DNA from: Synergistes jonesii
Lineage (GTDB): Bacteria > Synergistota > Synergistia > Synergistales > Synergistaceae
Assembly (NCBI RefSeq): GCF_000712295.1
Contig: NZ_JMKI01000004.1
Coordinates: 1-64,000, forward strand
Direction of reading: 5' to 3'
DNA length: 64,000 nucleotides
Positions 1-32,176 of the stretch are shown here, one piece after another (positions within the stretch are counted from its first letter, which is position 1; each line of letters begins with the position of its first letter). Made by a program: the position numbers and the translations under genes. The notes under the pieces are model-generated. The model searched no databases, had not been told where the DNA came from, and worked only from the letters and a program-made list of their open reading frames with translations.

Positions 1-105
1 GGAATCCACCGAAGACGTGATACAGGCGGCGATCAGCCCCGGCATCACGAGCAGGAAAATAGCCTTGAGCGAATCGAACGCGTCCTTTACCTCCTGCTGG
101 CTCAC
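1..105 (-). CDS. Partial small membrane protein, probable phage holin (cut by left edge)
   Basis: Only the first 35 codons are in the window. The frame opens with GTG at 105 after an in-frame stop just upstream, a few bases beyond the stop of the M15 peptidase gene. The visible N-terminus has a short polar stretch (SQQEVKDAF) followed by a hydrophobic run containing AIFLLVMPGLIAA, which fits a membrane segment. Its place directly after two murein-degrading genes suggests a holin, but that is inference from position and hydrophobicity. The ribosome-binding site is weak. Confidence 0.45.
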   Translation of the reverse strand, partial: MSQQEVKDAFDSLKAIFLLVMPGLIAACITSSVDS

Positions 106-111
106 CTCACC

Positions 112-489
112 TCACCGCCCCCTGTAATCCCAGCGCGCGCGCCTGCCGCGCACGTCCACGTGGATCCCCCAGTCGTACAGGCCTATGCCGCCTTTGTCGA
201 ACTCTGGGATCATAGCGGCGAACTTAGCAAATTCCTTCGGCGAAAGCTTCGGGCAGTAAATATCGGCGGCTATGCCCTCCAGATGCCGGCTGTTCCGCAC
301 GCCGCCGACGCGCCTGTTGTGCCGGACGCATCTGACCGCCGAATTGATGATGATGGGGACGCCGATCAGATCCCTCAGCGCCTGTAAAGCCGTCACCAGC
401 TTCATGTCGATCGGCGCCGCGTCGCAATCTTTCCTTCCGCACCTACAGCGGAACTCCTTCCGCGAGAAATCCTTCGTTAGGTCTCCCAA
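112..489 (-). CDS. Phage endolysin, peptidase M15A-like (D-Ala-D-Ala carboxypeptidase fold)
   Basis: A 125-residue protein with the M15A zinc-peptidase pattern: SRHLEGIAAD near residues 67-76 and GIHVDVRG near 107-114, giving the His/Asp and His ligands expected of the fold. It probably cleaves peptide cross-links of peptidoglycan at lysis. It begins with TTG at 489, with AAAGAGG about eight bases upstream, directly after the stop of the transglycosylase gene. It has no signal peptide, so it would need the adjacent putative holin to reach the wall. Confidence 0.85.
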   Translation of the reverse strand: MGDLTKDFSRKEFRCRCGRKDCDAAPIDMKLVTALQALRDLIGVPIIINSAVRCVRHNRRVGGVRNSRHLEGIAADIYCPKLSPKEFAKFAAMIPEFDKGGIGLYDWGIHVDVRGRRARWDYRGR

Positions 490-492
490 CGC

Positions 493-1041
493 CTACGCCT
501 CTTTCAAGCGCCCTTCATACAGCCGCCACAGCGCGCAGACGTTCCGCGCGTAAGCGCTCCCGCTCCCAGCGCCATTGAAGCGGCCGGCGGCGGCGCGCAC
601 GATCGCGGCGTCGATCCCCCCGCCCGCTCCGAGCGCCAGGCGCACCGCATCATTGTGGCGCGCAAGCTCCTTGCGGAGCAGCACGCCCAAATGCGCCGCG
701 CCGAAGCGCACATTCTGATCCGGATCAAGCAGCGCCGCGACAGGGTCCTTCCTGGCCGCAGTCCCCATATAGCCCCAGGCCAGCGGCAGCATCAGCTGCA
801 TAAGCCCGTAGCTCGTGGCCACATCCTCGAGGGACAAGCCGCATGCATGGGCTATCTCGCGGCAGCGCGCCTCATACCTTTCCATATACTCCGGCTCGTG
901 CCGCGTTGCCTCTGGGCCCCCGCCCGACTCCTGCTCGATCACCGCCAAAATCAAAGCCGGCGGACATCCAGTCTGCCGGCCCCACTTCTCCGCAAGCTCC
1001 CGCCAGCGGAACACCTTCATATTCGGCTTCCATACGCTCAT
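493..1041 (-). CDS. Phage lytic transglycosylase (SLT domain)
   Basis: A 182-residue protein with the goose-type/SLT lysozyme signature: catalytic Glu in ILAVIEQESGG (about residues 31-41), SYGLMQLML (about 78-86), and a late AGRFNGAG..YARNV segment. It would cut the glycan strands of murein either during DNA entry, as a virion component, or at lysis. AGGAGG lies just before the ATG. Its place between the tail spike and the M15 endolysin allows both roles. It has no signal peptide. Confidence 0.85.
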   Translation of the reverse strand: MSVWKPNMKVFRWRELAEKWGRQTGCPPALILAVIEQESGGGPEATRHEPEYMERYEARCREIAHACGLSLEDVATSYGLMQLMLPLAWGYMGTAARKDPVAALLDPDQNVRFGAAHLGVLLRKELARHNDAVRLALGAGGGIDAAIVRAAAGRFNGAGSGSAYARNVCALWRLYEGRLKEA

Positions 1042-1074
1042 AGCCTTACCTCCTTTCGCTTCCCTCCGCCGCCT

Positions 1075-3717
1075 CTACACCACAGCGCGGGAAAGTATCA
1101 CATTCTGCCCGTTGGGGATGTAGATAAAATTCTCTCCGTCCGCTATGCGTAGGTTTTCCAATTTCTCCCGCAGCGCCTGCGGGAGAGGCGTCCACGTTAT
1201 CCCGCCGTCCACCGTGACGCTGTACACTCCGTTCTTAGAACCTATGCTGTAGCTCTGGGCGCTTCCGAGCGGGAGTTCAGAGAGCGCTATGTGCGCATAC
1301 GAGTGATACCCTTGGCTGAAAGCCCTGTATTTGGCTACAGTGCTCGACGAGCCGTCGTAGTACGCCTTCACCGCGTCGTAAGCCAATCTCGGCTTAGCCT
1401 GCCCGGTGACTTTCACCTGTCCGGAGACTATCGCACCGACCGTTTTAGTCACGTCCGGCTGTACGGCTACGAAGAAGTTGAAACCAGCCAGCTCATGTGA
1501 TGTGAAATCGCCCGCTTCGTTCAGTATGCCGTAGCAGTAGCGGACGTATTTCGCCCCTTCCGGTATCACGCCTTGGCGCGACGATATGAGCCCACTTATG
1601 GGGTTCAAGGCCCCGTCGTAGAAGTAGCGCGTAATGAGGGAGAAGCGATTGGTCATGCTTTGTGTCCAGTCACTGAGGTCGGTTGTGTCGATATAGTTTT
1701 GTACCTTCCACGACGCCGGCATAAATCCCGAACGTACTCTTTTGGGGTTTTCTGTTTCCATGCCCGTGCTGCTGTTGATGCCGCCTATTTCCCATACGGC
1801 GGCGTTCATGCCGTTGTAGACGTCGATGCGCAAGTCACCGTCTGAGACTTTGCCGCTGACGTAAACGGAGGGCCTGTAGCTGGCCGAATAAATAACGGCG
1901 TCGCTGTCCCTCAATACGGCTTCTTCCAGCGTGTTGCGACGGCCGTCGGCGCTGTTGTATTCGGAGTACGGGGATTCGAGCGGCACTCTCGCGAACATGC
2001 ATTCTAGCGCGGGCGACGACGACGTGGATGTGCCGTGCTCGGCGTCGTATGGGTTGATGCGGTCGAGGAAGCGGCGCATTATAAGATTTTCTTTCACAGC
2101 TTTCCCGTCCGGCCCGACCGTGAGCGTCGGCCCGTAGCCGCCGGACTCTATGCATTCGGGGTGCAGCCTGCCGTCGGCGGCGTCGGTCGGCGTGCTTTCC
2201 ACCCAGCGCCCTGTGAACATAGCCACGTGGTCCCACATGCGGAATAGGTTTTTGAACGAGGGGTATTCCGGCTTGTACGGGTTAGTGCGCCAGAATACCA
2301 GATCTCCGGCCTGTAGCTTGCTGTAGTTTATACCGGGGTCTATCGCCCAGCCGTTTTTGTAGAGCCATTCTATACTGGAGGAAGCTCGAAGGTTGTCTAC
2401 ATACTTTCCCCACGGATAAAAGTGCGTCCCGCGCCAGCGGTTGGTCAACTGCTCGTACCTGCTCTGCCAGTACGGTATACCGCGGATCGCGAGAAATATC
2501 GGCGCTCCGCAGTCGCATGATTTCTCGCACGCGGACGGGGAGCCGCCGCTGTACGCGCTGACGGTGTAAAGGCCGTCGTCGGCCGGCCCCTTGAAGTTCA
2601 TTTCAAGGCTGTCGTTGTTCTCCTCGATGTGCGAACGCCCGTATACCCACGAACGGCCGGCGTAGCTTTCCATGCAGCTTACGAGCTGTCTTGCCGCGAC
2701 TGGGTCGTTCAGTGGTCTTTCGTTGGAAAGTATCGAGTAGGCGTTTATTGCGTTGCAGTCTTTAGGGTTGGGGGTGAAGGCGGTGGGGAACCGGCCTTTT
2801 TCGAGTTTGAAGAGGTGTTTGTCGCCCAAGTCGAATATCGATGCGGCCGTTACGCTGCCGGAGTCGTTTAGGACGTAGCTGTAGAGCCGCATGTAAGTCG
2901 CTTCCGCCGGCACCGTGAAGGTATAGCCTTTTTGCAGCAGCTCTACAGCCGCGGACGACGACGTCTCGAGCAGCCTGCCTACACATTCGTCGTCCGATAT
3001 GTCGATGTCTTCGTAGTGTTCGAGGTGCGCCGGGGCGGGCTGCCTCTCGGCCTCCCTGTAGAAGAAGAGGCGGCAGCCTGCGGAGCCCCACGCTTTTATC
3101 GTATACGTCCCCCCCGCCGTCACCGGTATTTTGCGCCTGTACCTCAGTGCGGCGAATTTCAAGTTGTCCCTGTTGTAATCCGAGCCGACGGGGCCTTCGG
3201 ACTCCGTCACGCACATGCGCCCGCGCTCCCAGCAGCTTACGTTGTGGCGTATGAGGTTTTCGCCCGGGACGCGACTGCGCCCGGCGTTGTCGACGAGCGT
3301 CCCCCCGCCTGTGTTTGTAACCGTCCACATGTCCGCTTCGCAGTCCAGTGTAAGCGTTTTGCCGGCCGCCACATTGAACACGGCTCCGTTGTCTATTTCC
3401 AGATAGACGTTCGCAGGCACCGTCAGGTCGTTCAATACGTTGTACGTCCCCGCCGGCAGCCGCAGCTTTATCGCCGAGCCGTCCGCCCTGTTTATCCACC
3501 AGGCCAGCGAAAGCGGGGAAGAGGCCTCCGCCTGATCCGGCCACACGGCCACCACGTTGTCCGGCGTGAGCGTGTATCCGCCCGCTTTGTTTCCGTCTCC
3601 TACGAGGAGCTTTTTTACGTCTGTCAATACGCCGAGCTCGTTTTCCATCAAGACCGAGGCGGCGGCCTGTGAAGAGGTGCCGCCGCGCTCCGTGCGGCGC
3701 ACTATGTTGGTAGTCAT
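1075..3717 (-). CDS. Large tail spike/fibre with an embedded NlpC/P60-like cysteine peptidase domain
   Basis: An 880-residue protein transcribed after the short tail fibre gene. The N-terminal third (about residues 45-170) looks like a tailspike head with an incipient beta-helix (LRLPAGTYNVL, DNGAVFNVAAGKTLTLD). Around residues 380-520 an NlpC/P60-like unit is visible: CDCGAPIFLAIRGIPYW carries the candidate nucleophile Cys (about 401), LQAGDLVFW is the usual GDLVFF strand, and WDHVAMFTG (about 496) carries the candidate His. The C-terminal part is beta-rich with no recognised domain. The protein probably binds the cell surface and locally hydrolyses wall peptides during infection. AGGT lies before the ATG. 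Confidence 0.75.
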   Translation of the reverse strand: MTTNIVRRTERGGTSSQAAASVLMENELGVLTDVKKLLVGDGNKAGGYTLTPDNVVAVWPDQAEASSPLSLAWWINRADGSAIKLRLPAGTYNVLNDLTVPANVYLEIDNGAVFNVAAGKTLTLDCEADMWTVTNTGGGTLVDNAGRSRVPGENLIRHNVSCWERGRMCVTESEGPVGSDYNRDNLKFAALRYRRKIPVTAGGTYTIKAWGSAGCRLFFYREAERQPAPAHLEHYEDIDISDDECVGRLLETSSSAAVELLQKGYTFTVPAEATYMRLYSYVLNDSGSVTAASIFDLGDKHLFKLEKGRFPTAFTPNPKDCNAINAYSILSNERPLNDPVAARQLVSCMESYAGRSWVYGRSHIEENNDSLEMNFKGPADDGLYTVSAYSGGSPSACEKSCDCGAPIFLAIRGIPYWQSRYEQLTNRWRGTHFYPWGKYVDNLRASSSIEWLYKNGWAIDPGINYSKLQAGDLVFWRTNPYKPEYPSFKNLFRMWDHVAMFTGRWVESTPTDAADGRLHPECIESGGYGPTLTVGPDGKAVKENLIMRRFLDRINPYDAEHGTSTSSSPALECMFARVPLESPYSEYNSADGRRNTLEEAVLRDSDAVIYSASYRPSVYVSGKVSDGDLRIDVYNGMNAAVWEIGGINSSTGMETENPKRVRSGFMPASWKVQNYIDTTDLSDWTQSMTNRFSLITRYFYDGALNPISGLISSRQGVIPEGAKYVRYCYGILNEAGDFTSHELAGFNFFVAVQPDVTKTVGAIVSGQVKVTGQAKPRLAYDAVKAYYDGSSSTVAKYRAFSQGYHSYAHIALSELPLGSAQSYSIGSKNGVYSVTVDGGITWTPLPQALREKLENLRIADGENFIYIPNGQNVILSRAVV

Positions 3718-3739
3718 TTAAAAACCTCCCTGCACAAAA

Positions 3740-4582
3740 TCAGAAAGAGCCGCCCGAAACGAAGGCGGCCGCGGCGTCCCCGAAAGTCCCGCCGCTTTCC
3801 ATATCGTACGTCCCCGCCTGTTGGATCACGGTGACGCGCACCCACATATCCGACTCCGGAGGATACGCGCCGGAGACGTCCGTCCCTATGCACCTGTACG
3901 TATGGCCGTCCACGCAGCAGACCGTATCGGGGTAGCCGTAGACCGTCGACGCGTCCCACGGCGGCACGGAAGAGGCCGAAAGCACGGCGTCCCTGGCCGC
4001 CTCCGCGGCCTCCGCGCTCATCTCCGCCGACGCCTTGGCGGCAAGCGCCGCGTCGGCCGAACTTACGGCCGACGAAGCCGACAGCTGCGCCGCGTCGCGC
4101 GCCGAAAGCGTCTCCCCGTGCTTCTGCGCTATCTCCTCGTAGCGCTCGTGATTCTCCACCACCTGCGCCGCCAGCTCCTCCGCGGAAAGCGAATCGTCCA
4201 CCGGCGCCGTTATCGCGCGCCCCGCGACTTCCGCCAGCTGCTGGATCATCATCACGCCGCGGTCCAGCCCCTTTTCCGTGTCGTCGGCGAAAAAGCGCCC
4301 CTGCTGATTCAGCAGCTTTACCGGCTGCAGCAGCGGCAGCTCCCTCATCAGCGTCAGAGTCCACCCCGCGGGCAGCGCGTCCGCGTCCGCGGAAGCGGGG
4401 TAGACCACCCGCCTCGCTTCGGCGTCCACCCTATAGCCGGACGAAATAAGCTCCGGCGTCCCGCCGGGCCCCGAAACATACACCTTCATATACGAGACGT
4501 CCGGCAGCGGGAAATCGTAACTCCATTCGCGCGTCAGCCCGTTGCCGGCGTGGACCTTCTTACAGCTTTCAAAATCCAGCAT
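3740..4582 (-). CDS. Tail fibre/adaptor with T7-fibre-like N-terminus, Ala-rich coiled coil and carbohydrate-binding-like end
   Basis: About 280 residues. The N-terminal 110 residues resemble the T7 gp17 N-terminal domain that docks fibres to the tail (YDFPLPDVSYMKVYV; later QGRFFADDTEKGLDRGVMMI). The middle (about 150-200) is an Ala/Ser-rich heptad-like coiled coil typical of trimeric fibres. The end has a chitin-binding-like module (WDASTVYGYPDTVCC..Y..W). ATG at 4582 is preferred over the overlapping GTG because AGGAGG is then correctly spaced. It probably anchors the larger spike encoded next. Confidence 0.8.
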   Translation of the reverse strand: MLDFESCKKVHAGNGLTREWSYDFPLPDVSYMKVYVSGPGGTPELISSGYRVDAEARRVVYPASADADALPAGWTLTLMRELPLLQPVKLLNQQGRFFADDTEKGLDRGVMMIQQLAEVAGRAITAPVDDSLSAEELAAQVVENHERYEEIAQKHGETLSARDAAQLSASSAVSSADAALAAKASAEMSAEAAEAARDAVLSASSVPPWDASTVYGYPDTVCCVDGHTYRCIGTDVSGAYPPESDMWVRVTVIQQAGTYDMESGGTFGDAAAAFVSGGSF

Positions 4583-4591
4583 CACAGCCTC

Positions 4592-7231
4592 CTAACCCGC
4601 CGGCGCCACGTCGGCCGTAAGCGCCAGCACCGAACAGGGCAGCGGATGCGGCGCGTAAAGCACCATCCGCCCCTCGTCATAAGAAGAATCAAAGAAAATC
4701 TCGTGGTCGCAGGAAAAGAGCCGCGTAGCCTCCCCGCTCTCCTCATCAGAGCGCTCCGGCACCTCGAAAAGCAGAGCTTTCTGCGCTTCCGAGACCCCCG
4801 GACCGGTATAGACGGCGTTGCCCGGGCCTCCGGCGGCGGCGCCGGCCGAAAGCCCGCGCGTCCTCTCCACGCGCACGCGGACGGAGGCGACGCGGCTCTT
4901 CCGCGTAAGCTGCGCGCCGTCCCTCCTCTGATACGAAAGATCCAGCGTCTCCGCCACAGCGGCGTAGGGCAGCCCCACGTGCACGACGCGCGCCGCCTCC
5001 GGCAGCATTACTCGGCCGTCCTCCACGACCAGCCCCTCCACCGCGTCGCCGTCGGCGTTCGCGCAGACCGTGCGCCCGTTCAGATGCGAAAGCCCGGAGA
5101 CCTCCCTTTGCGCGGACGCGGAGACCCTCGTGATCCCCGCGTCCACCATAAAGGCCTCCGCGGCGGTGGAGGCCTCCATCGGCTCCATCACCTCTATAAA
5201 GCGTTCGGCCCCGCGCCGCACGCAGAGATACACCAGGTCGGAGCCGCGCGAAATCACCGAAGCCACGCGCTCCACGACCCCGTCAGTCGGATAGCGCGCC
5301 CAGGCCACCACCTCGTGCTCGCGTATATACGTCATCCCTATCAGCAGCCCGTCGTCGCGCACCGCCCAGCACATCGAATCCGGCTCCAGCGCGAAAGCCC
5401 AGTCTACGATCTCGCGCCCTTCGAAAAGATGCCTCGCCAGCACCGTCAAGTCGTTGCCCGTATAGCTGTCGGAGGCGTATTCATAGCCCAGGTCGCGGAT
5501 GCGCAGGCCCCGGGCCTGCACGAAAAGAATCATATTGCCCACGACGATCGGCTCTATCGCGGCGCAGCCCCTGTTGCCCTGCAGCCCTACGTCGACGTTG
5601 GAAGGCGTCACTGCGCCCCCCGCCGCTCCGGAAGAAAGCTTCCACTCGCCGCCGGAAGTCATCACCAGCAAGTCTCCCAGCGAGACGAAATACCTGAGGT
5701 CGAACATCTTCCGCGAAACCAGCGTGCCGGAAAGCGCCTCGTCGTCCAGCGCCTCGAACGACGCGCCGAAATCGTAATAATCGCCCGTCTTCGACATCCA
5801 CCAGCTCTGCGGCTGCTCCCGCGTCGAGCCCATAATCAGGCGCTCCTGATAAAATCCTGCGGCCGACGGCCAGCCCTGCGCGTCGCTCCACGCGCCCTCC
5901 TCCCAGTTGACGGTGGCCTTCGTAGCGGCCGCCGCGGTGAGCACCCGCGCCGCCGCCGAAGTGGGGGAGTAGACCGCCGTGATCTTCATCACCGCCCGGT
6001 GCTCGGCCGCGTTCGCCGCCAGCTGGAAATAGCCGCGGTCCTCCTCGCTGTTGCCCTCGGGCACGAAAGTAGTGAACGACGCCGCCCTCACGCGCAGCCG
6101 CGTCGGCTTGTCCACCACGTCCTGATCGCTGTAATTCTTCGCATTGCCGCAGGAGGACGACGTCCCCTCGGCATAACTTTCCGAAATATAAGTCTTATAC
6201 TTCACCCAGGCCGACTCATCCTCGTCGTAATACTCCAAAAACACCGTTCCGCCCCAGAAGCCGCCGGACTCCAGCCGCCAGCCCTTATAGGCCGTCACCT
6301 CGAGCGTCCGGCCGCCGGATGAGGCCGGGACGAAGACCGAACAGTCCACCGCGCCGACGCGCACCGGCGCCGGCGGGGAAAAGGTCACGACGCCCTCCTC
6401 CGAAAGAGAGGAGACGGAGCAGTCGGTATAGCCGTCGCCGCTTACGGCGCTGTAGACGCGGCACCTGCGCCCGACCGCGAAATATCCCCTGTACGCCTCC
6501 GGGACCGTGTAATAATAGCTGTACGTGGGGCCACCCTCGCCCGACGACCCCGTCTCTTCCTGGACCCCGGTGATCGAGGCGGAGGCCCAGGCGCCGCCGG
6601 CGTCTCCGGAGGACTTCACCGAAACCTCGTCCACATGATGAATGACCGAAAAAAGCCCGCCAACGTGCCCCGACTTAAAGAGCGGCGCCGAGGCGGTAAG
6701 GACGATATTTCCCGTCTTGGCCGAGAGCCCTACCGCGACCGCCTCTATATCGGCCCCGTGCCCGCGCCAGGGGCCGTTCTTAAAGGCGAAATCCGCCAGC
6801 ACCCAGTTCGTGTCATTGACGCGGTACAACTCACGCGGCCTGTGATTCTTATGCACGATATAAAGCACGTCCGCCGACTGCGTGAACGACAGCCCGTCGA
6901 TATCGGCCGCCGAATAGGGCGTCGCCACCTCGTACGGCTCCGACCCCGACTGGATCTGCCTTCCGTCGCGGTAAAAGCGCACATACCTGTCGCCGAACTC
7001 CAGCACATACGTCTGATCTATCGAATACTCGAACTCCACCAGCCGGCACTTCCCCTTAGCCTTGGCCACGAACCTCATCCCCGCGCGCTTAGTGATCCCG
7101 CCGTGCGGATGTATCACGAAATTCTCGCATCTCCGCAGCCCGGCGGCGTACTTCGCTAAGTCCGGCCGTCCGAAAAGCGCCGGAGAAATCTCGCCCGAAG
7201 CGAAAGAAGTCTGCAAAGTGCGTATGCTCAT
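4592..7231 (-). CDS. Tail tubular protein B / tail nozzle (T7 gp12-like)
   Basis: An 879-residue structural protein starting SIRTLQTSFASGEISP, the typical opening of podovirus nozzle proteins, followed by AGLRRCENFVIHPHGG and FEYSIDQTYVLEFGD, both family hallmarks. It forms the nozzle of the short tail through which DNA exits and to which fibres attach. Its start overlaps the stop of the tail tubular protein A gene by four bases, indicating coupled translation. Length is within the normal range for this family. Confidence 0.9.
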   Translation of the reverse strand: MSIRTLQTSFASGEISPALFGRPDLAKYAAGLRRCENFVIHPHGGITKRAGMRFVAKAKGKCRLVEFEYSIDQTYVLEFGDRYVRFYRDGRQIQSGSEPYEVATPYSAADIDGLSFTQSADVLYIVHKNHRPRELYRVNDTNWVLADFAFKNGPWRGHGADIEAVAVGLSAKTGNIVLTASAPLFKSGHVGGLFSVIHHVDEVSVKSSGDAGGAWASASITGVQEETGSSGEGGPTYSYYYTVPEAYRGYFAVGRRCRVYSAVSGDGYTDCSVSSLSEEGVVTFSPPAPVRVGAVDCSVFVPASSGGRTLEVTAYKGWRLESGGFWGGTVFLEYYDEDESAWVKYKTYISESYAEGTSSSCGNAKNYSDQDVVDKPTRLRVRAASFTTFVPEGNSEEDRGYFQLAANAAEHRAVMKITAVYSPTSAAARVLTAAAATKATVNWEEGAWSDAQGWPSAAGFYQERLIMGSTREQPQSWWMSKTGDYYDFGASFEALDDEALSGTLVSRKMFDLRYFVSLGDLLVMTSGGEWKLSSGAAGGAVTPSNVDVGLQGNRGCAAIEPIVVGNMILFVQARGLRIRDLGYEYASDSYTGNDLTVLARHLFEGREIVDWAFALEPDSMCWAVRDDGLLIGMTYIREHEVVAWARYPTDGVVERVASVISRGSDLVYLCVRRGAERFIEVMEPMEASTAAEAFMVDAGITRVSASAQREVSGLSHLNGRTVCANADGDAVEGLVVEDGRVMLPEAARVVHVGLPYAAVAETLDLSYQRRDGAQLTRKSRVASVRVRVERTRGLSAGAAAGGPGNAVYTGPGVSEAQKALLFEVPERSDEESGEATRLFSCDHEIFFDSSYDEGRMVLYAPHPLPCSVLALTADVAPAG

Positions 7232-7827
7232 CCCCTGCCCCTCACATACTCATCCGCCCAATCGTCGCCCATATCCGCCGGAACCGCTTCATTCGCGTCG
7301 TTCCACGCCGCGCGCTGCACCGCCTCGTTATAAAACCTCGCCAGATGCTCGCGCATATTCACGTCGCCGCCCTGCAGCGAGACGCATATCTCCATAGCCA
7401 GCCGGTATGCCAGAGCCTCCGCGAAGAGGTCCGGCATAAAAGGCGGTATCGCGCTTGAGCGGAACTCCGCGTAAGCCCGATAGAGATCCGTCGCGACCGC
7501 CGCTTCGAACACGCCCTTGCGCGCCTCCACCGTCAACATCCTGAAAGGGGCGTTCCCCGCCTCCTCGTTGAACACCCGGCAGAGCACGGCGCAGTCCTGC
7601 GGCGGCGTATAAAGATACTTCCACCCCGGCACAGAGACATCCATCTGTTCCAGCGTGCATATCCTGACCGTCCAGCTCCACGGATGCGCCGCCAGCAGAG
7701 AACGGAAAGCCGGCAGATAGACTCTTTTGCAGACCGCCGCCTCGGCGCTCTTCTCATCCATCGAACTTATGCCGCGCGAGCAGCCGCAGAGAATCAAAGC
7801 CCTGTTGCAAACTTCGGTCTCTCCCAC
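7228..7827 (-). CDS. Tail tubular protein A (T7 gp11-like adaptor)
   Basis: A 199-residue protein with the gp11 pattern: TEVCNRALILCG near the start, the SAEAAVCKRVYLPAFRSLLA helix and the HPWSW motif that follows. It forms the ring joining the portal to the nozzle. The start is GTG at 7827 with AAGGAGGG six bases upstream. It lies just beyond a strong terminator, so part of the late transcript probably reads through or initiates here. The gene order A then B matches T7-like tails. Confidence 0.88.
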   Translation of the reverse strand: MGETEVCNRALILCGCSRGISSMDEKSAEAAVCKRVYLPAFRSLLAAHPWSWTVRICTLEQMDVSVPGWKYLYTPPQDCAVLCRVFNEEAGNAPFRMLTVEARKGVFEAAVATDLYRAYAEFRSSAIPPFMPDLFAEALAYRLAMEICVSLQGGDVNMREHLARFYNEAVQRAAWNDANEAVPADMGDDWADEYVRGRG

Positions 7828-7847
7828 ACCCGTCCCTCCTTTCCGTT

Positions 7848-7880
7848 ATAAAAAAGGCGGGGCTTTCGGCCCCGCCTTCA
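7848..7880 (-). terminator. Intrinsic terminator after head genes
   Basis: Read on the minus strand, a 10-bp GC stem (AAGGCGGGGC with GCCCCGCCTT, loop of five) is followed by TTTTTTATAA. It lies between the last head-region gene (7900) and tail tubular protein A (7827), separating head and tail transcription units or attenuating the tail genes. Confidence 0.85.
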
Positions 7881-7899
7881 ACAACGCTTTTATCTTTCG

Positions 7900-8145
7900 C
7901 TATTTTCGCGTGCTCACGTCGATGCGCGGGGGCACGGTCTTAGGGCTCGGCCTGCCGACGGGCCCGATCCCGTTGTCCATCAGCCAGCGCGCCTGGAGCC
8001 TGCGCCCCTCGCGCTTCGCCTCCGAAACATCCTCCCAGCCCTCATAACAGTCGCCGTAGGGATTGACGGAGGCTCCGTTCTTCACGGCCGCCGCCCCCGC
8101 CTCGTGCAGCAGCTTCGCGAAGGTCTCCACATTCCATTCGCTCAC
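7900..8145 (-). CDS. Hypothetical phage head-region protein, 81 aa
   Basis: An 81-residue basic protein that I do not recognise. It starts at GTG 8145, four bases downstream of the cement protein stop, and ends just before the terminator at 7848-7880, so it is the last gene of the head block. It contains WNVETFAKLLHEAGAAAVKNG and a WEDVSEAKREGRRLQARWL helix. Its position suggests a minor head or head-completion protein, but the sequence itself gives no function. Confidence 0.6.
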   Translation of the reverse strand: MSEWNVETFAKLLHEAGAAAVKNGASVNPYGDCYEGWEDVSEAKREGRRLQARWLMDNGIGPVGRPSPKTVPPRIDVSTRK

Positions 8146-8148
8146 GGC

Positions 8149-8547
8149 CTACAGATCCTCATAAGAGTGATGGTCTCCCTCTACAAGGAACATATCCACC
8201 TTGCCCGCCGTAAAAGTCCCCGTCACGTCGATATACCCGCGCAGATACCTCTTGCAGCCGCGCGGGACGCGCACCGCGAAGAGCTTCTTCCCGGCCGTGA
8301 GCTCCGCCAGCGTGACTTCGTCGCTCCTGTAAAGCGCCTTCTTCGTCGAAAAATCGCTTGCGTCCGAAGTTTCAAGCGAAAACACCGCCGAAGTCCCGCC
8401 GGCTCCGGCGGCGGAGCAGACGCCGACGAAATACATCTCGTCGCCTATCGCGTCGCCGCCCTTCACGAGATCTATGACGTCCGTCGCCGCGTCTCCTCCG
8501 GAGAGCTCCTTACCCTCGCAGAAAATAAGATCCTTCTCAAGTATCAT
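8149..8547 (-). CDS. Capsid cement/decoration protein, Bbp16-like
   Basis: A 132-residue beta-rich protein opening ILEKDLIFCEGKEL, followed by DVIDLVKGGDAIGDEMYFVG. This is the layout of the Bbp16 cement proteins that bind the shell of BPP-1-type podoviruses and stabilise it. It directly follows the major capsid gene, as expected. AGGAGG precedes the ATG. The function is inferred from family resemblance recalled for this gene order. Confidence 0.7.
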   Translation of the reverse strand: MILEKDLIFCEGKELSGGDAATDVIDLVKGGDAIGDEMYFVGVCSAAGAGGTSAVFSLETSDASDFSTKKALYRSDEVTLAELTAGKKLFAVRVPRGCKRYLRGYIDVTGTFTAGKVDMFLVEGDHHSYEDL

Positions 8548-8561
8548 CTTTTCTTACCTCC

Positions 8562-9569
8562 TTAAGCTACCGCCGCTTCGTTGTTCTTGATGGTGTCCAC
8601 CTGGCGGATGGGCACGCCCCAGAACGAAGTGACCGGCTTGCCGCCCACCTCGTCCACCTTCAGCGCCAGCGTCGAGCGGTTCGCCGCCTGTAAATTCAGC
8701 GCCGTCATCACCGTGCGGTTGCAATAGATGACCCGCCTGCCCATATCGGCCTTCGGGAACTTGCCGAACGCCGTAATAAGCAGGTTGATGAGATCCGCGC
8801 CGGCGTAGCCCGACGAGCCGGAGCCCGCGAGATCCGATACGTCGATATTGGCGATGCGCACGCCGTAGCGCCAGTCGCGCACGCAGAAGCCCATATCCCA
8901 CTTATAATGCGTCACATACGCCTCATACTTCTTGTTGCTCGCGTCGCGCACCGTCTGCTGCCCGCGGAAGTCGACGGAAATCCCCGCCTTGCTCCCGCGC
9001 GGATAAAGGCCGTGCATCGTCTGCGTCCCCCAGTTGAGGATATAGATAGACGTGTTGTCCGTCCCCGAGCCGCCGCCGTCTACGACGTTGAAGCCGATCT
9101 TCTTCTCGTCCGTCGAAAGCGTGCAGTAGCGCGCCGCAAGCCCGGTGAACTTCGCCGTATCCTTCTTCTCGTTGCCGTAGATCAGCGTATCCGCCATCTC
9201 GATATTCATACGCTCCAAGAACGAAGAACTCTCCGAAAGCAGAAAGGCCGCCTTGTCGGGCGCCATATCTGCAAGAGCCTTGTCAATCTCGCTGTAAGTT
9301 TCAAGCATGCCGCAGGAGTCCTGAATCTGCTCCGTCTCGCTCTTCGACGACGGCACGCCTTCGTAGAGCTTGCGCCATGTCGCCTCCGGCAGCCCCGTCC
9401 TCACAGTGGTCTTGTGCGTGTGGCCGCTGTTGCACTGCTCGAAGACCATATCGTCAAGAATCGCGTTCTGCTCCGACAGCATCTCCACGATCTTCGCGAT
9501 CTTCCCGTTCCCGTCGGTGCGACGGGCCACATCCATAAGCGTCGGGTTGTTTCCGCCTAAAATAGCCAT
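8562..9569 (-). CDS. Major capsid protein (BPP-1/Bbp17-like)
   Basis: A 335-residue protein with the expected length and pattern of the major capsid protein of this podovirus group: NNPTLMDVARRTDGNG at the start, QNAILDDMVFEQCN, a LPEATWRKLYEG segment, and a C-terminal KVDEVGGKPVTSFWGVPIRQVD strand region. The fold is presumably HK97-like. It follows the scaffold gene and precedes the cement gene. A strong AGGAGG lies before the ATG, consistent with high expression. Confidence 0.88.
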   Translation of the reverse strand: MAILGGNNPTLMDVARRTDGNGKIAKIVEMLSEQNAILDDMVFEQCNSGHTHKTTVRTGLPEATWRKLYEGVPSSKSETEQIQDSCGMLETYSEIDKALADMAPDKAAFLLSESSSFLERMNIEMADTLIYGNEKKDTAKFTGLAARYCTLSTDEKKIGFNVVDGGGSGTDNTSIYILNWGTQTMHGLYPRGSKAGISVDFRGQQTVRDASNKKYEAYVTHYKWDMGFCVRDWRYGVRIANIDVSDLAGSGSSGYAGADLINLLITAFGKFPKADMGRRVIYCNRTVMTALNLQAANRSTLALKVDEVGGKPVTSFWGVPIRQVDTIKNNEAAVA

Positions 9570-11352: not shown

Positions 11353-13026
11353 TCAAAGCCCGTTCGTAAACATATCGTTTACGGCGGAAAGCGCCGAGCC
11401 TTCCCTCACGTCGGTGTTGGCCAGCGCCTCAGCGCCCTGCGCCGCCTGCGCGCCCGACTGTATGGCCGCCTGCATCTGCGCGATCTGCTCCTGCTTCTGC
11501 GCCGCCTGGGCGCGCGCGGCGCGTATCTCTTCCACTGCGGCCGGCTCGCGCAGTATCTTTGCCGGCGCTCCCGACAGCCTGCAGTACTCTCGGATCGCGC
11601 CGTCCACATCCAGCGCGTCCGCCGCTTCCGGGAACGACGCGGCGATAGACCCGATAAATGAGACGCTCTGCTCGATCGGCTTCATGCCCTGCATCTTCTG
11701 CGCCTGCGCCAAAATCGATACGAACTCGATATTTATATCCGACGCGCCGCGCAGCGCCTCCGGAGGCTCCGGGATATAACCCGCCTCGTCCATTATGACG
11801 TATATGCGCTCTATCGCCGGAGAAAGCAGCTCCCTTTCCAGCCGTCCGAGCACCGGCCCCAGCACCAGCATCTTCTCCTCGTGCCGCTCGATTATCTCCC
11901 TAGCCGTCATCTGCGGCCTGTCCGCCTGCTGCAGCATAAGGAACAGATCTGCGTACATCGTGCTGCGTATCGATTCCGTCGTCTCCTGGATGATCTGCTG
12001 CAGCCCCGGCAGATTGAGCTGGACGTTGTACAGCGGCAGCACCTGTTGCACCTGCCCGTCGGGGACGAAAGTCACGCCGTTGGGCGCGGAGCGCACCCCC
12101 GAACGCCGCAGCCCTTCCGGGGCCACCAGCGGAGGAGCCACCTGCTTGCGGATCGCAACGGCCCTGTCGCGTATCTGTATCCGCAGCTCCTTGGCGTCCG
12201 GCAGCGCCTCCGCGCCGGGGCCGTATCCGTATATATCGTTGTCGATACAGTGCCACCTCGGAGTCATCGCGGGGAAGTCCGAATAGCCGCGGACGGCCAA
12301 AAGCCTCTCCTCCATGCCGCCGCTCTCCCAGTAGACGGAGCGGAACGGCTTGCGCGTGACATGCTCGTAATCCGGCTCGATCGCCTGATGCACGAGAAAA
12401 CGCGTGAACGGGCTCGATTTCGCCGCCGACCGCACCCCGTCCGAGGCGTTCTCTTCGCCGAATATGGAGACGATCTGCTTCGCGGTGAGGTCGAAATCCC
12501 TATAGACGCAGTCCACGTCGTAGCCGTTAGAGGCCCCCAGCCAATAGCGGCCGCAGGTGAGCGTCCCGCAGCGGATGAAATTCTCATAATCCGGCTCGAT
12601 GAACATTACCCCCGTGCCGAAGGTGACGAGTTCCTCATAGACGTTATGCAGCGCGTGATAGAAGTTGCTGCCCTGCATCACGCGCATCATGCGGTCATGT
12701 ACGTCGTCCAGCCAGTTCCGCACCTCCCAGTCGTCCGACAGGGCATGATCGTGCGTCGAGAGCTTGAACCACTGTCTGGAGGGCGAAGTGAGCCCGGACT
12801 GCATCCCCGCCACCAGCGTCGAACGGGCCTTCATCGGCGCGGAGGAAAGCACCTTGCCCATGTCGGGAAGGACGTCCTTTTCGCCGTCGAAACGCCCGCG
12901 GAACGGATGAATGTAGCTTCGCAGCTCCCGCCAGAGCGGGTCGATGTAAGAGGCTGCGCTGCGCAGCTCCGCGCGCCGCAGTTCAAGCCCGCGCTTAAGC
13001 TCCGCTGCGTTTACCGTTCTTTCCAT
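11353..13026 (-). CDS. Portal / head-to-tail connector protein (podovirus type)
   Basis: A 557-residue protein of the T7 gp8 connector type: YIDPLWRELRSYIHPFRGRF near the start, ARSTLVAGMQSGLTSPSRQWF (about 68-88), WLDDVHDRMMRVM and ELVTFGTGVMFIEPD, all typical. Twelve copies would form the ring at one vertex through which DNA is packaged and ejected. The C-terminal ~100 residues are Gln/Ala-rich helices (the barrel region). It lies in the canonical order after the terminase. Confidence 0.92.
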   Translation of the reverse strand: MERTVNAAELKRGLELRRAELRSAASYIDPLWRELRSYIHPFRGRFDGEKDVLPDMGKVLSSAPMKARSTLVAGMQSGLTSPSRQWFKLSTHDHALSDDWEVRNWLDDVHDRMMRVMQGSNFYHALHNVYEELVTFGTGVMFIEPDYENFIRCGTLTCGRYWLGASNGYDVDCVYRDFDLTAKQIVSIFGEENASDGVRSAAKSSPFTRFLVHQAIEPDYEHVTRKPFRSVYWESGGMEERLLAVRGYSDFPAMTPRWHCIDNDIYGYGPGAEALPDAKELRIQIRDRAVAIRKQVAPPLVAPEGLRRSGVRSAPNGVTFVPDGQVQQVLPLYNVQLNLPGLQQIIQETTESIRSTMYADLFLMLQQADRPQMTAREIIERHEEKMLVLGPVLGRLERELLSPAIERIYVIMDEAGYIPEPPEALRGASDINIEFVSILAQAQKMQGMKPIEQSVSFIGSIAASFPEAADALDVDGAIREYCRLSGAPAKILREPAAVEEIRAARAQAAQKQEQIAQMQAAIQSGAQAAQGAEALANTDVREGSALSAVNDMFTNGL

Positions 13027-13468: not shown

Positions 13469-14875
13469 CTATCTGTATATATCGTAATCTTCGTCGGCCG
13501 TCGCCGCGCCGTCGTCCGGCGCATAGCCCCCGAAGCCGTATTTCGCCTGCACATCCGCGGCGAAAGTGAGCGCCAGCGCATCCGCCAGGTCGGGGGAAGC
13601 CAGCCCGCGCTTCTTCATATCCGCCTTGCGCTCAAGCTGAATAAGATTCTTCCCCGTCGTATACTGATACTCCGGCCCTACGAGGTCGTCGCGCAGGTCG
13701 GGATCGTCGGGGACGGCCCCGCCCGAGAGGAACCACTCGCGCATCTTGTACCAGACTTCCGTGCGCCTGTTCGCACAGTTGGCAAGCAGCGACTTCTCGC
13801 CGGCGTAAAAAGCGATGGGGGAGCGGTGCATCAGCCGCAGGCTCGACATCACCGCTTCCCCCACGCCGGTCGCGTCCACGATCAGCGCGTCCGCCTTGTG
13901 TTCGTCGTAGAGCCTCGCCGCGTGCCCCGCCAGCTGCTCCGGCGTATTGCCGCGCGTCTGATACAATATGTTCGAATACAATCCCTGCCGCAGTACGATC
14001 ACGCTCCGGTCGCCGCCGAACATCGCCACGTCCACGCCAAGTATCTTCGGCGCGAAGTCGAACATCTCGCCGCGCAGATGTTTCCCCATCGCCGCCTCCA
14101 CCACGTCCCCCGGCATGAACTGAGTGACCGAAGCGTTCGGGAACTCGCCCAAGACGCGCACGCGGTACATGTCCGAGTCCTCGCCGTACTCGTCGGCTAT
14201 CTCCGATGCGTAAGCGGGGGAGACGCGCGGCGAATCCAGACAGGAGAACTGAAAACGCGTCCAGAGATCGCGGTTCCTGTGATGGCTGTTGTAAAAATAT
14301 CCCGAGAGCCTTGTAGGGTTCGCCGCCATGAGGATACGCGCCCCTTCTGTGGAAAGCGCGCCGCGGGCCACCTCGAAGACAGTCTCGGGAATGCCGGAGG
14401 CTTCGTCGATCAAGAAGATCATATGGTCTGCGTGGAAGCCCTGCAGCGCTTCGGGGTTCTCCTTCCTGCCCGTGCGGGCGGCCACAAAGCCCGGGGTGCC
14501 GTCCATAGTCACCTTGTCGCCTTTTACGCGGATCGCCGACTTCCACGGTTCCAGCATCCTACTGCGCCACTTCTCGATTTCGGGGAAGAGTATATCCTCC
14601 AGCTGATGGGCCGTAGGAGCGGTCGCAGGAACCTTGACGTCCCAAAAACAGACGAGCGCCCACAACGCGATCCAAGCGAACATCGTCGACTTGCCCGTGC
14701 CGTGCCCAGAACGAATGGAAACGTGCGCCCCCGGCCTGCTGAAAGCGACGAGCGCCGATTCCTGCTGCTTTGTAGGTTCCACGTCGAGACACTCGACGAC
14801 GAAATCCAGAATACTGTCGCGCCAGCGCTCGACGTCGGATATAAGCTTTTCTTCCGGAGTCAGCTCATCGTTCAT
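13469..14875 (-). CDS. terL: Terminase large subunit (DNA packaging ATPase/nuclease)
   Basis: About 468 residues. The ATPase part has Walker A RSGHGTGKST, Walker B MIFLIDEASGI and the coupling motif ILMAANPTR. The RNase H-like nuclease has acidic residues in LGVDVAMFGGD, LIVDATGVG and SPDLADALAL. It packages phage DNA into the prohead. ATG at 14875 is preferred over GTG 14905 because a GGAGGG site is correctly spaced; the gene then overlaps the small subunit stop by 11 bases. Confidence 0.93.
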   Translation of the reverse strand: MNDELTPEEKLISDVERWRDSILDFVVECLDVEPTKQQESALVAFSRPGAHVSIRSGHGTGKSTMFAWIALWALVCFWDVKVPATAPTAHQLEDILFPEIEKWRSRMLEPWKSAIRVKGDKVTMDGTPGFVAARTGRKENPEALQGFHADHMIFLIDEASGIPETVFEVARGALSTEGARILMAANPTRLSGYFYNSHHRNRDLWTRFQFSCLDSPRVSPAYASEIADEYGEDSDMYRVRVLGEFPNASVTQFMPGDVVEAAMGKHLRGEMFDFAPKILGVDVAMFGGDRSVIVLRQGLYSNILYQTRGNTPEQLAGHAARLYDEHKADALIVDATGVGEAVMSSLRLMHRSPIAFYAGEKSLLANCANRRTEVWYKMREWFLSGGAVPDDPDLRDDLVGPEYQYTTGKNLIQLERKADMKKRGLASPDLADALALTFAADVQAKYGFGGYAPDDGAATADEDYDIYR

Positions 14876-15521
14876 CCCGCTCACCCTCCGCGGCTTTCGA
14901 CCCACGTTTCTTTCGACGTTCTTCTATCGTCTGCGTGATACCAGCGGCGGAAACCTCGATATTCACCGTAGTATCCGGAGACTTGAGCCCCCTCATCTCA
15001 GCCAGCAGCTTGATGGCGCTCAACCTGTCTTCTAGGGCGATTTTCGGGGCCAATATTATAGTGTCTTTATTGCCTATGTTTTGTACTTCCATGGACTTTA
15101 TAGCGGTCGTCTTCTTTAAAGGCATGTCGCAAGTCGGATAAAAAATGACGCCGTCGAAGTCCAGATGAAGTTGTCCGTTGTCTTTCCTCGCCTGAGCGTC
15201 AAGCGCTTCCCGTCTGTTCGGGTCGCCGCTCCCATTTGAAATCTGGACGTAATCCGTAACGTCGGAATCTATAAACGCTATGAGCTTGTTCACAAGATAG
15301 CGGTCCAACGCAGCGCCCTTATAGTCTGCGTGGGCAAGCTGTTCAAGCTCTAATTCCCTGATTCTGGCTTTTATGTCAGGCTTTGTCAGGTTCTCGCTCG
15401 CCTGTTGTCTTGCACAGTTTTTCGAATACCCGGCGCGTATCGCCGCTTGTGTGGCGTTGCGCTTGGGGTCGTTGACATACTCTATGCAAAACCGCTCCTG
15501 CATCTCACTGAGCGCCATCAT
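14865..15521 (-). CDS. terS: Terminase small subunit
   Basis: 218 residues from the ATGATG at 15521, which has AGGAGG five bases upstream; the longer open frame has no such site. The N-terminus is the terminase_2-type helix-turn-helix: QERFCIEYVNDPKRNATQAA then IRAGYSKNCARQQASENL. It recognises phage DNA for packaging and hands it to the large subunit encoded next. The C-terminus is basic (RRKKRGSKAAEG). Confidence 0.88.
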   Translation of the reverse strand: MMALSEMQERFCIEYVNDPKRNATQAAIRAGYSKNCARQQASENLTKPDIKARIRELELEQLAHADYKGAALDRYLVNKLIAFIDSDVTDYVQISNGSGDPNRREALDAQARKDNGQLHLDFDGVIFYPTCDMPLKKTTAIKSMEVQNIGNKDTIILAPKIALEDRLSAIKLLAEMRGLKSPDTTVNIEVSAAGITQTIEERRKKRGSKAAEGERDER

Positions 15522-30436: not shown

Positions 30437-31600
30437 TCAAGAAATCCCGCCGCCTGACAGCCCGTCCAGCTCATCCGCATACCACTGCATCATCCTCACC
30501 CGTTCCGGCATATACTTCGCCTGGTTATAAATCTCCCGCACGCCTCCGGCGCTGTGCGCGAGCTGCGTCTCTATCGCGTCCGCGGACCAAAGCCCGGACT
30601 CGTTGAGGATCGTCGACGCCATATGCCGGAAGCCGTGCGCCGTCATCTTATCCGGACCGAAGCCCATAGAGCGTATCGCGATCCGCACGGTATTCTCCGA
30701 CATCGGCCGTGTCGCCGAGCGCTCCGATGGAAAGACGAACTCCGTCCTGACGCCGTCTTCGTCGAGCAGCCGCCGCTCATCCTCCAGAACCTCCGCCGCC
30801 TGGCGCGACAGCGGCACGACATGCTCTCTGTTTCCCTTCATGCGCTCCGCCGGTATGCGCCACTCCCGCCGCGGCAGGTCGAGCTCGCGCCACAGCGCGC
30901 CGCGCACCTCGCCGGGCCGGCAGAAAGTATACGCCGAAAACAGCAGCGCGTTGCGCACCCGGCGCTGTCTATAATACCTTATTCCGCGCATAAGCTCCGC
31001 TACGTCCCGTCGGTCCGTCAGCGCGGCGAAATGCGCGGCGCGCACCGGCATCAGATTGGCAGACAGGCCCGCGGTGGGATCCGCGGGCACCATACCCGTG
31101 GGAATGCCGAACTGAAAAACCGCCGCGAAAATATCCAGCACGCGATGCGCCGTCTCGATAAACCCCTCCCGTTCGACCTCCTTGCAGAGCGCGAGGATCT
31201 CCTTGCCCTTGATAAACGCCGCCGGCCGTCCCGCAAAGCGCGGCAGCAGATACTTATCCAGGCGCATCCGCACCGTCCGGCTGTAATTCGCCGACAGAGG
31301 CAGGATACGCGTCTTATACCATTCCTCCGCCAGCTCGCCGAAGCGCACGTCAGGCACTTCAAGCCCCGTCGCTATCCCCACCTCCCGCTTCTTAAGCGCG
31401 CACGCCTCGCGCGCAGCCTTCAGCGACAGCTCCGGATACCTTCCAAGGGAAAACTTCCGTCGTTTGCCGCCCTTCTGCGTAACGAACCACCAATACTTGA
31501 TGCCGGACGGCACCACCTCGACATACAGGCCGTCTCGGTCGGCCTTCATAAAGCGCTGCTCCTTCGGGCGAAGGTCCCGCACCGCGATCTCAGTCAGCAT
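30437..31600 (-). CDS. int: Tyrosine integrase, P4-like (DUF4102 N-terminus)
   Basis: A 387-residue integrase. The N-terminal arm-binding domain (residues 1-85) is of the P4 type (DGLYVEVVPSGIKYWWFVTQ; GRYPELSLKAAREACALKKR). Catalytic residues: Arg in FCRPGEVRGALW, His-x-x-Arg in TAHGFRHMAS, a Gln/Leu-x-His in LAHSAGGV, and Tyr in REIYNQAKY. It inserts the phage into the 3' end of ssrA, whose end is about 220 bp upstream of the gene. Repeats at 31618-31777 look like its arm sites. Confidence 0.93.
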   Translation of the reverse strand: MLTEIAVRDLRPKEQRFMKADRDGLYVEVVPSGIKYWWFVTQKGGKRRKFSLGRYPELSLKAAREACALKKREVGIATGLEVPDVRFGELAEEWYKTRILPLSANYSRTVRMRLDKYLLPRFAGRPAAFIKGKEILALCKEVEREGFIETAHRVLDIFAAVFQFGIPTGMVPADPTAGLSANLMPVRAAHFAALTDRRDVAELMRGIRYYRQRRVRNALLFSAYTFCRPGEVRGALWRELDLPRREWRIPAERMKGNREHVVPLSRQAAEVLEDERRLLDEDGVRTEFVFPSERSATRPMSENTVRIAIRSMGFGPDKMTAHGFRHMASTILNESGLWSADAIETQLAHSAGGVREIYNQAKYMPERVRMMQWYADELDGLSGGGIS

Positions 31601-31823: not shown

Positions 31824-31860
31824 TGGTGGAGACGCGGGGAATCGAACCCCGGTCCAACAG
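31824..31860. other. Phage attachment site (right end), within the tmRNA 3' end
   Basis: The T-arm and acceptor end of ssrA (GGTTCGATTCCCC and the CCA end) is the likely crossover core. The matching left att copy is not in this window, as expected if the prophage continues beyond position 1. The exact core length cannot be read from one end alone. Confidence 0.6.
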
Positions 31861-32176
31861 AAGACAATCTGGAGGGCGCTACGTGCGTAGCCTACATTTT
31901 AAATTTCAGGGCTGCGGCTCCCACAGGCAGGATACGCTTTCCCAATCCCCTCCTGTATCTCGGACGGCAGCCGAAGGGCTCTGCTGCGGCCCCAGCCGTC
32001 TTTGTGACGCCCTTCCGGTACCCGACGGCGGAAGCGCCGGAGAGCGCGCTGCTTAATTAAGCAGCGAGTGCGTAATTGTCTTCGACAATTATTGTTTTGG
32101 AGCCGGATTTACGAGGTTTCCCCATCCTCGGCACGCTCCCCCCGACCCTCCGCTGTTGTCGAAACCTGTCGTCCCC
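31824..32176 (-). ncRNA. ssrA: tmRNA (transfer-messenger RNA)
   Basis: A 353-nt one-piece tmRNA. The 5' end GGGGACG pairs with the 3' CGUCUCC ahead of ACCA, forming the acceptor stem. The T-arm reads GGTTCGATTCC. The tag frame ends in IVEDNYALAA followed by TAA (stop at 32057-32059), giving the proteolysis tag ending ALAA. It rescues stalled ribosomes with SmpB, encoded 73 bases upstream. Its 3' end is the prophage insertion site and stays intact. Confidence 0.95.

Follow-up and report, generated by a model that had tools for sequence, protein, structure and literature searches.

An NlpC/P60-CHAP-like domain between binding-type modules in a podovirus-type prophage spike of Synergistes jonesii

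What does a domain resembling a cysteine peptidase do in the middle of the tail spike of a short-tailed phage? That phage tails can carry NlpC/P60 domains is well established. The question is raised by a gene in the window, a stretch of 64,000 nucleotides from Synergistes jonesii whose first base is also that of an 88-kb contig in a genome of 2.74 Mb. An earlier note on this DNA had described an open reading frame on the minus strand (1075..3717) for a spike of 880 amino acids with an internal NlpC/P60-like domain. The reading frame starts with ATG and is genuine, and its coordinates were given correctly; the gene order and the relatives identify it as the spike gene. All features of the window given with coordinates below lie on the minus strand.

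The spike gene belongs to a prophage which extends from a tmRNA gene (31824..32176) and the adjoining tyrosine integrase (30437..31600; PF00589) leftwards to the contig edge. The tmRNA gene is the probable attachment site; a second att copy was not found in the stretches compared. The late genes follow in the order large terminase (13469..14905; phrog_2), portal or head-tail connector (11353..13026; PF12236), GP7-type major capsid protein (8562..9569; PF20911), tail tubular protein (7228..7827; phrog_394), nozzle-like tail protein (4592..7231; phrog_376 with E 2e-202, Phage_nozzle weakly), tail fibre/spike adaptor-like protein (3740..4585; phrog_1640 with E 4e-10), spike, SLT lysozyme (493..1041; PF01464) and M15 endolysin (112..489; PF08291 and phrog_894). 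Because tubular and nozzle proteins were matched, we read the prophage as a short-tailed (podovirus-type) temperate phage; annotation of the 15-30 kb interval was partial. LpxC is encoded in the host genome, and hence the host probably has an outer membrane with LPS. The lysis cassette to which the SLT lysozyme belongs recurs in another prophage of the same genome, C2 (L041:1035-2064), with 99.8% DNA identity to window 3-1033 over 1031 bases, and contig C4 starts inside this repeat common to both prophages.

The spike begins with an anchor (residues 1-127; 3337..3717) that contains an Mtd_N-like stretch at residues 11-43 and leads into the start of the spike head. Its match to Mtd_N (PF18454; E 4.3e-4) lies below the cut-off, which is cleared by the 87% identical anchor of the related phage L023 (28.3 vs 26.3 bits). 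Residues 25-141 are 47% identical to a protein of G033 which continues as a right-handed beta-helix spike; this anchor was also hit in G033 when 60 relatives were searched with the single protein. Residues 151-316 (2770..3267) align at an hhalign probability of 97.4 with a tail-protein repeat of Bacillus phage Palmer that is annotated as galactose binding. The same repeat is matched at 90.9 by residues 605-762 (1432..1905), which are probably a second galactose-binding-like module, less certain than the first. Compared with each other, the two modules reach a probability of only 20.1, and controls with unrelated modules 0.1. The conserved C-terminal segment (residues 795-880; 1078..1335) is 53-57% identical to relatives and recurs at the end of the L025 protein (probability 86.8).

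The NlpC-like domain thus lies between two flanking modules, behind an Mtd_N-type anchor, and the flanks are of the tailspike N-terminal and receptor-binding type that had been proposed from the sequence. Beta_helix gave no match in the spike, the match to phrog_2234 (tail spike) is confined to residues 81-128, and the AlphaFold model of the full-length protein (3 alignment rows; pLDDT 34, pTM 0.26) was of no use. An identity as a siphophage tail-associated lysin (Tal) was rejected, as PF06605 (Prophage_tail) is absent from the spike and its neighbours are the nozzle, tubular and adaptor proteins of a podovirus-type tail. A major tropism determinant (Mtd) diversified by a DGR was dismissed because a reverse transcriptase is absent (no RVT_1 in this genome at E <= 0.01); only the Mtd_N-type anchor is shared.

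Relatives of the domain were found in three more genes of the same genome, C60 (650 aa), C34 (594 aa) and C2 (456 aa), and in the viral contigs L023 (741 aa), L025 (924 aa), L026 (755 aa) and L036 (516 aa), with L037 as a canonical NlpC protein. Judged by their N-termini, the L025 and L036 proteins are presumably fibre proteins. As the C60 prophage encodes a tape measure protein and Dit, it is long-tailed. Closest outside the host group are L026 and the Terrisporobacter phage TVCOM_ph1, in both of which the domain is at the C-terminus of a Prophage_tail-type tail protein. Peptide-pattern scans of the genome contigs (two) and the first scan of the viral contigs yielded no relatives, the phage and plasmid records held no full-length relative of the spike, and of the genomes searched with one alignment each (180 of the order, 185 of the phylum) none but the window's own gave a match.

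Some of these relatives have particular surroundings. The C34 gene (L011:7320-9104) sits within a surface-glycan cluster with AMP-binding, acyltransferase, DegT aminotransferase, RmlA/RmlC-type, glycosyltransferase, glycerophosphotransferase and ABC transporter genes. Its start and 62 upstream bases (733 bases in total) are 100% identical to the end of the prophage contig C60 (L010:11707-12439), which is either a recent copy or an assembly artefact. Directly upstream, an O-acetyltransferase-like reading is split in two overlapping frames (L011:6064-7168) and is perhaps a decayed gene. The C2 prophage also encodes a protein of 1454 aa (L041:6686-11050) that matches phrog_9880, a family of unknown function, with E 3e-170.

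Within the spike, the domain covers residues about 334-580 (1978..2718). The motifs follow each other in the order that had been claimed: D402-C403 in CDCGAPIFLAIRG, the GDLVFW strand (residues 471-476; 2290..2307) as placed by the eight-sequence alignment A4, and D496-H497-V498 within DHVAMF. The pattern DC-x(55,95)-GD[LIV][VI][FY]-x(10,40)-HV, which was drawn up only after the spike sequence had been seen, occurs once in the spike and in none of 20000 shuffles. The candidate catalytic residues had been sought near 401 and 496. Cys403 (2509..2511), the candidate nucleophile, and His497 (2227..2229), the candidate base, are indeed conserved, being invariant in A4 (8/8) down to 21% identity, and Cys401 is not. 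Hence, a disulfide of Cys401 with Cys403 as a conserved pair is disfavoured, and we rejected this reading. Across all eleven sequences read out, the Cys is kept in ten and the His in every one. The exception is TPDSL_ph2 (L021, end of CDS 1-3567), where the Cys is replaced by Asp; inactive versions of the domain therefore probably exist. Glu524 (2146..2148) is a candidate third residue, a position at which 8/11 sequences have Glu; C2 has Asp, L023 Gly and L037 His.

Residues about 334-580 are very likely a divergent member of the NlpC/P60-CHAP superfamily. Five lines concur: the eight-sequence alignment, the PDB profile search, the comparison with a canonical phage NlpC protein, the Pfam matches among the relatives and an AlphaFold model of low confidence. 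Searches of the spike against Pfam, NCBIfam and PHROGs reached no NlpC model, and no library profile exceeded its curated cut-off. Among the relatives, the C34 protein scores 13.7 bits on NLPC_P60 (PF00877), under the curated cut-off of 23 bits, and the L026 protein clears that of CHAP (PF05257; 26.8 vs 26 bits). A profile of four relatives (L025, L026, TVCOM_ph1 and C2), built solely from proteins of other architecture than the spike, gives the spike 54.4 bits vs 6.9 for the best of 2000 shuffles.

Searches of the PDB with the single spike sequence gave no match. With a five-sequence profile, dipeptidyl-peptidase VI entries alone were returned (E 0.013 and 0.045). With the A4 profile, dipeptidyl-peptidase VI came first at E 0.001, followed by Spr/MepS and Tn916-type hydrolases among chance rows; as such we take the virus coat proteins and polyproteins in rows 3, 5 and several later ones (E 0.018 or worse). 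L037 (PF00877, 8e-33) aligns with A4 at an hhalign probability of 97.2, and an unrelated lysis protein at 0.4. The match is good at GDLVFF and HV; the DCSG of L037 is paired with residues past an insertion, and therefore the two Cys are left unaligned. A mixed alignment with L036 and L037 (A8) was discarded, as it placed the Cys of L037 in a wrong column.

The AlphaFold (AF2) model of the domain has a mean pLDDT of 57 and a pTM of 0.65. At this confidence it predicts a helix at model residues 78-85 (spike 405-412), just after the DC motif, and strands at 146-151 and 171-180 (spike 473-478 and 498-507), which match the GDLVF strand and the His strand. Two features of the superfamily are accordingly present in the spike: a Cys after the DC motif at a helix start, and the GDLVF strand followed by the strand bearing His497. 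Foldseek gave no match at E <= 0.001, and in both libraries NlpC/P60 or CHAP structures take its top two places. With VIA-align, the rows at Z >= 4 are mostly NlpC, CHAP, amidase, endopeptidase or phage lysin structures. These matches cover 109-140 residues and take in both Cys403 and His497; the best Z is 6.8, and values under 8 would not be convincing by themselves. The prediction and superposition proposed in the earlier note hence agree with its NlpC/P60 assignment as far as the best matches go, at a low model confidence; together with the other lines, they bear out an NlpC/P60-like domain mid-spike.

As the Cys and His are kept throughout A4, the domain of this spike is probably active. 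The kinship of the domain, its conserved Cys and His, the order of the modules and a sharp boundary between near-identical phages are observed; activity, substrate and timing we infer. Peptidoglycan is the less obvious substrate because the spike sits outside the outer membrane of an LPS-type host; a peripheral spike would meet glycan there, not murein. We assign a probability of roughly 50% to the reading in which the target of the domain is a surface polymer rather than peptidoglycan.

The exchange of the spike head fits this reading. Compared with the window, the DNA of the L023 phage reaches 95.6% identity at 3-1060 and 91.4% at 3333-8801; in between, at 1061-3332, one 50-base pocket can be aligned and nothing more. 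The border of divergence falls near residue 128, where the anchor gives way to the head, and the head of some 750 residues has been exchanged as a block on a shared anchor. Part by part, the head proteins are 28% (first module), 48% (NlpC-like domain), 38% and 53% identical, and thus the NlpC-like domain has diverged less than the first flanking module. The C2 prophage has another spike, which likewise includes a member of this domain family. That four genes of differing architecture bear the domain in a single genome indicates a target shared on that host. The block exchange, these four carriers and the beta-helix seen on a related anchor agree with a host-specific surface target. Against a surface hydrolase speak the Gly of L023 at the Glu524 position, the absence of any Pfam, NCBIfam or PHROGs NlpC model among the matches of the spike, the Asp for Cys in TPDSL_ph2, structural Z values that all stay under 8 on a model of low pLDDT, and the Prophage_tail type of TVCOM_ph1 and L026, for which peptidoglycan would be expected.

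The best surviving alternative, although a less likely one, would make the domain a virion-associated endopeptidase which cuts peptidoglycan to open the murein at DNA entry, like the tail lysins of long-tailed phages. The PDB matches named above are peptidoglycan peptidases, TVCOM_ph1 and L026 carry the domain at the C-terminus of Prophage_tail-type proteins, and a survey states that enterococcal podoviruses carry NlpC/P60 proteins, likely as part of the tailspike (PMC10194240). However, murein is out of reach for a peripheral spike without extra steps if the host has the probable LPS outer membrane, and the domain is placed between binding-type modules, within a part of the spike that is swapped as a block. 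A second alternative, distinctly less probable, is that the fold is kept as a non-catalytic scaffold or lectin. Such a role would suit the Asp of TPDSL_ph2, the lack of an acidic third residue in L023 and the scores far below the Pfam cut-offs; it is at odds with a Cys and a His that do not vary in A4 and with a domain better conserved than the first flanking module. That the motifs match by accident in a different fold, as the low-confidence model and the Foldseek result alone would permit, is highly improbable given that profile, PDB, L037 and structural evidence converge.

For the surface-hydrolase reading, the following mechanism may be proposed. The N-terminal residues (about 127) would fix the spike to the tail via the upstream adaptor, as homology and gene order suggest. 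The remaining residues (about 750) would form an exchangeable head of a galactose-binding-like module, the cysteine hydrolase, a probable second module and the C-terminal segment. The binding modules would grip a glycan on the host surface; an amide, peptide or ester bond in the surface structure would be cut at the Cys403-His497 site. In other spikes, beta-helix depolymerases and SGNH deacetylases play such a part, and cleavage here may likewise clear the way or commit the phage. Tentatively, the domain could stand for a novel class of receptor-processing phage enzymes: a spike-borne NlpC-like hydrolase which fills the place of the beta-helix depolymerase on an anchor common to both, attacks amide or acyl bonds at the outer surface of an LPS-bearing host, and has spread among the prophages of one host, short-tailed and long-tailed alike, while another copy lies in a surface-glycan cluster of the host.

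Phage host range is usually read from beta-helix depolymerases and lately from SGNH esterases. Such screens would miss a cysteine hydrolase in the same place that scores below the Pfam cut-offs. In the favoured reading, the spike would be a counterpart of the tailspike depolymerase rather than a peptidoglycan drill, and action at the outer surface would widen the range of targets known for NlpC/P60-like enzymes. If the four carriers share a target, each purified spike should alter the same surface structure.

The mid-spike position had been called unusual for a podovirus-type spike, and in the open-access library searched we found no description of a divergent NlpC-like family that is flanked by galactose-binding-like modules and carried on an Mtd_N-type anchor. 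With NlpC/P60 and CHAP hydrolases (PF00877, PF05257), the spike shares the order DC, GDLVF and HV, the Cys and His, and the structural matches. It differs in the 68 residues from Cys403 to Gly471, with a Y.WG segment between them, where dipeptidyl-peptidase VI has about 40. The TVCOM_ph1 siphophage lysin (PF06605) belongs to the same divergent catalytic subfamily (21-24% identity), but carries the domain C-terminally in a phage with a tape measure gene, whereas in the window it is mid-spike, between binding-type modules of a podovirus-type phage. The beta-helix tailspike of G033 (L012:5298-7325) has a homologous anchor and, presumably, the same role in the tail; its beta-helix stands where the window spike has the binding/NlpC head. 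The enterococcal proteins also belong to podovirus tails, but those of phages with Gram-positive hosts, and are likened here by their description in the survey (PMC10194240). SGNH hydrolases, presented as alternative receptor enzymes of Klebsiella prophages (PMC13123978) and known also from gp63.1 of phage G7C, likewise place a hydrolase other than a depolymerase on a receptor-binding protein; theirs is a serine esterase fold, whereas that of the window spike is a cysteine hydrolase fold.
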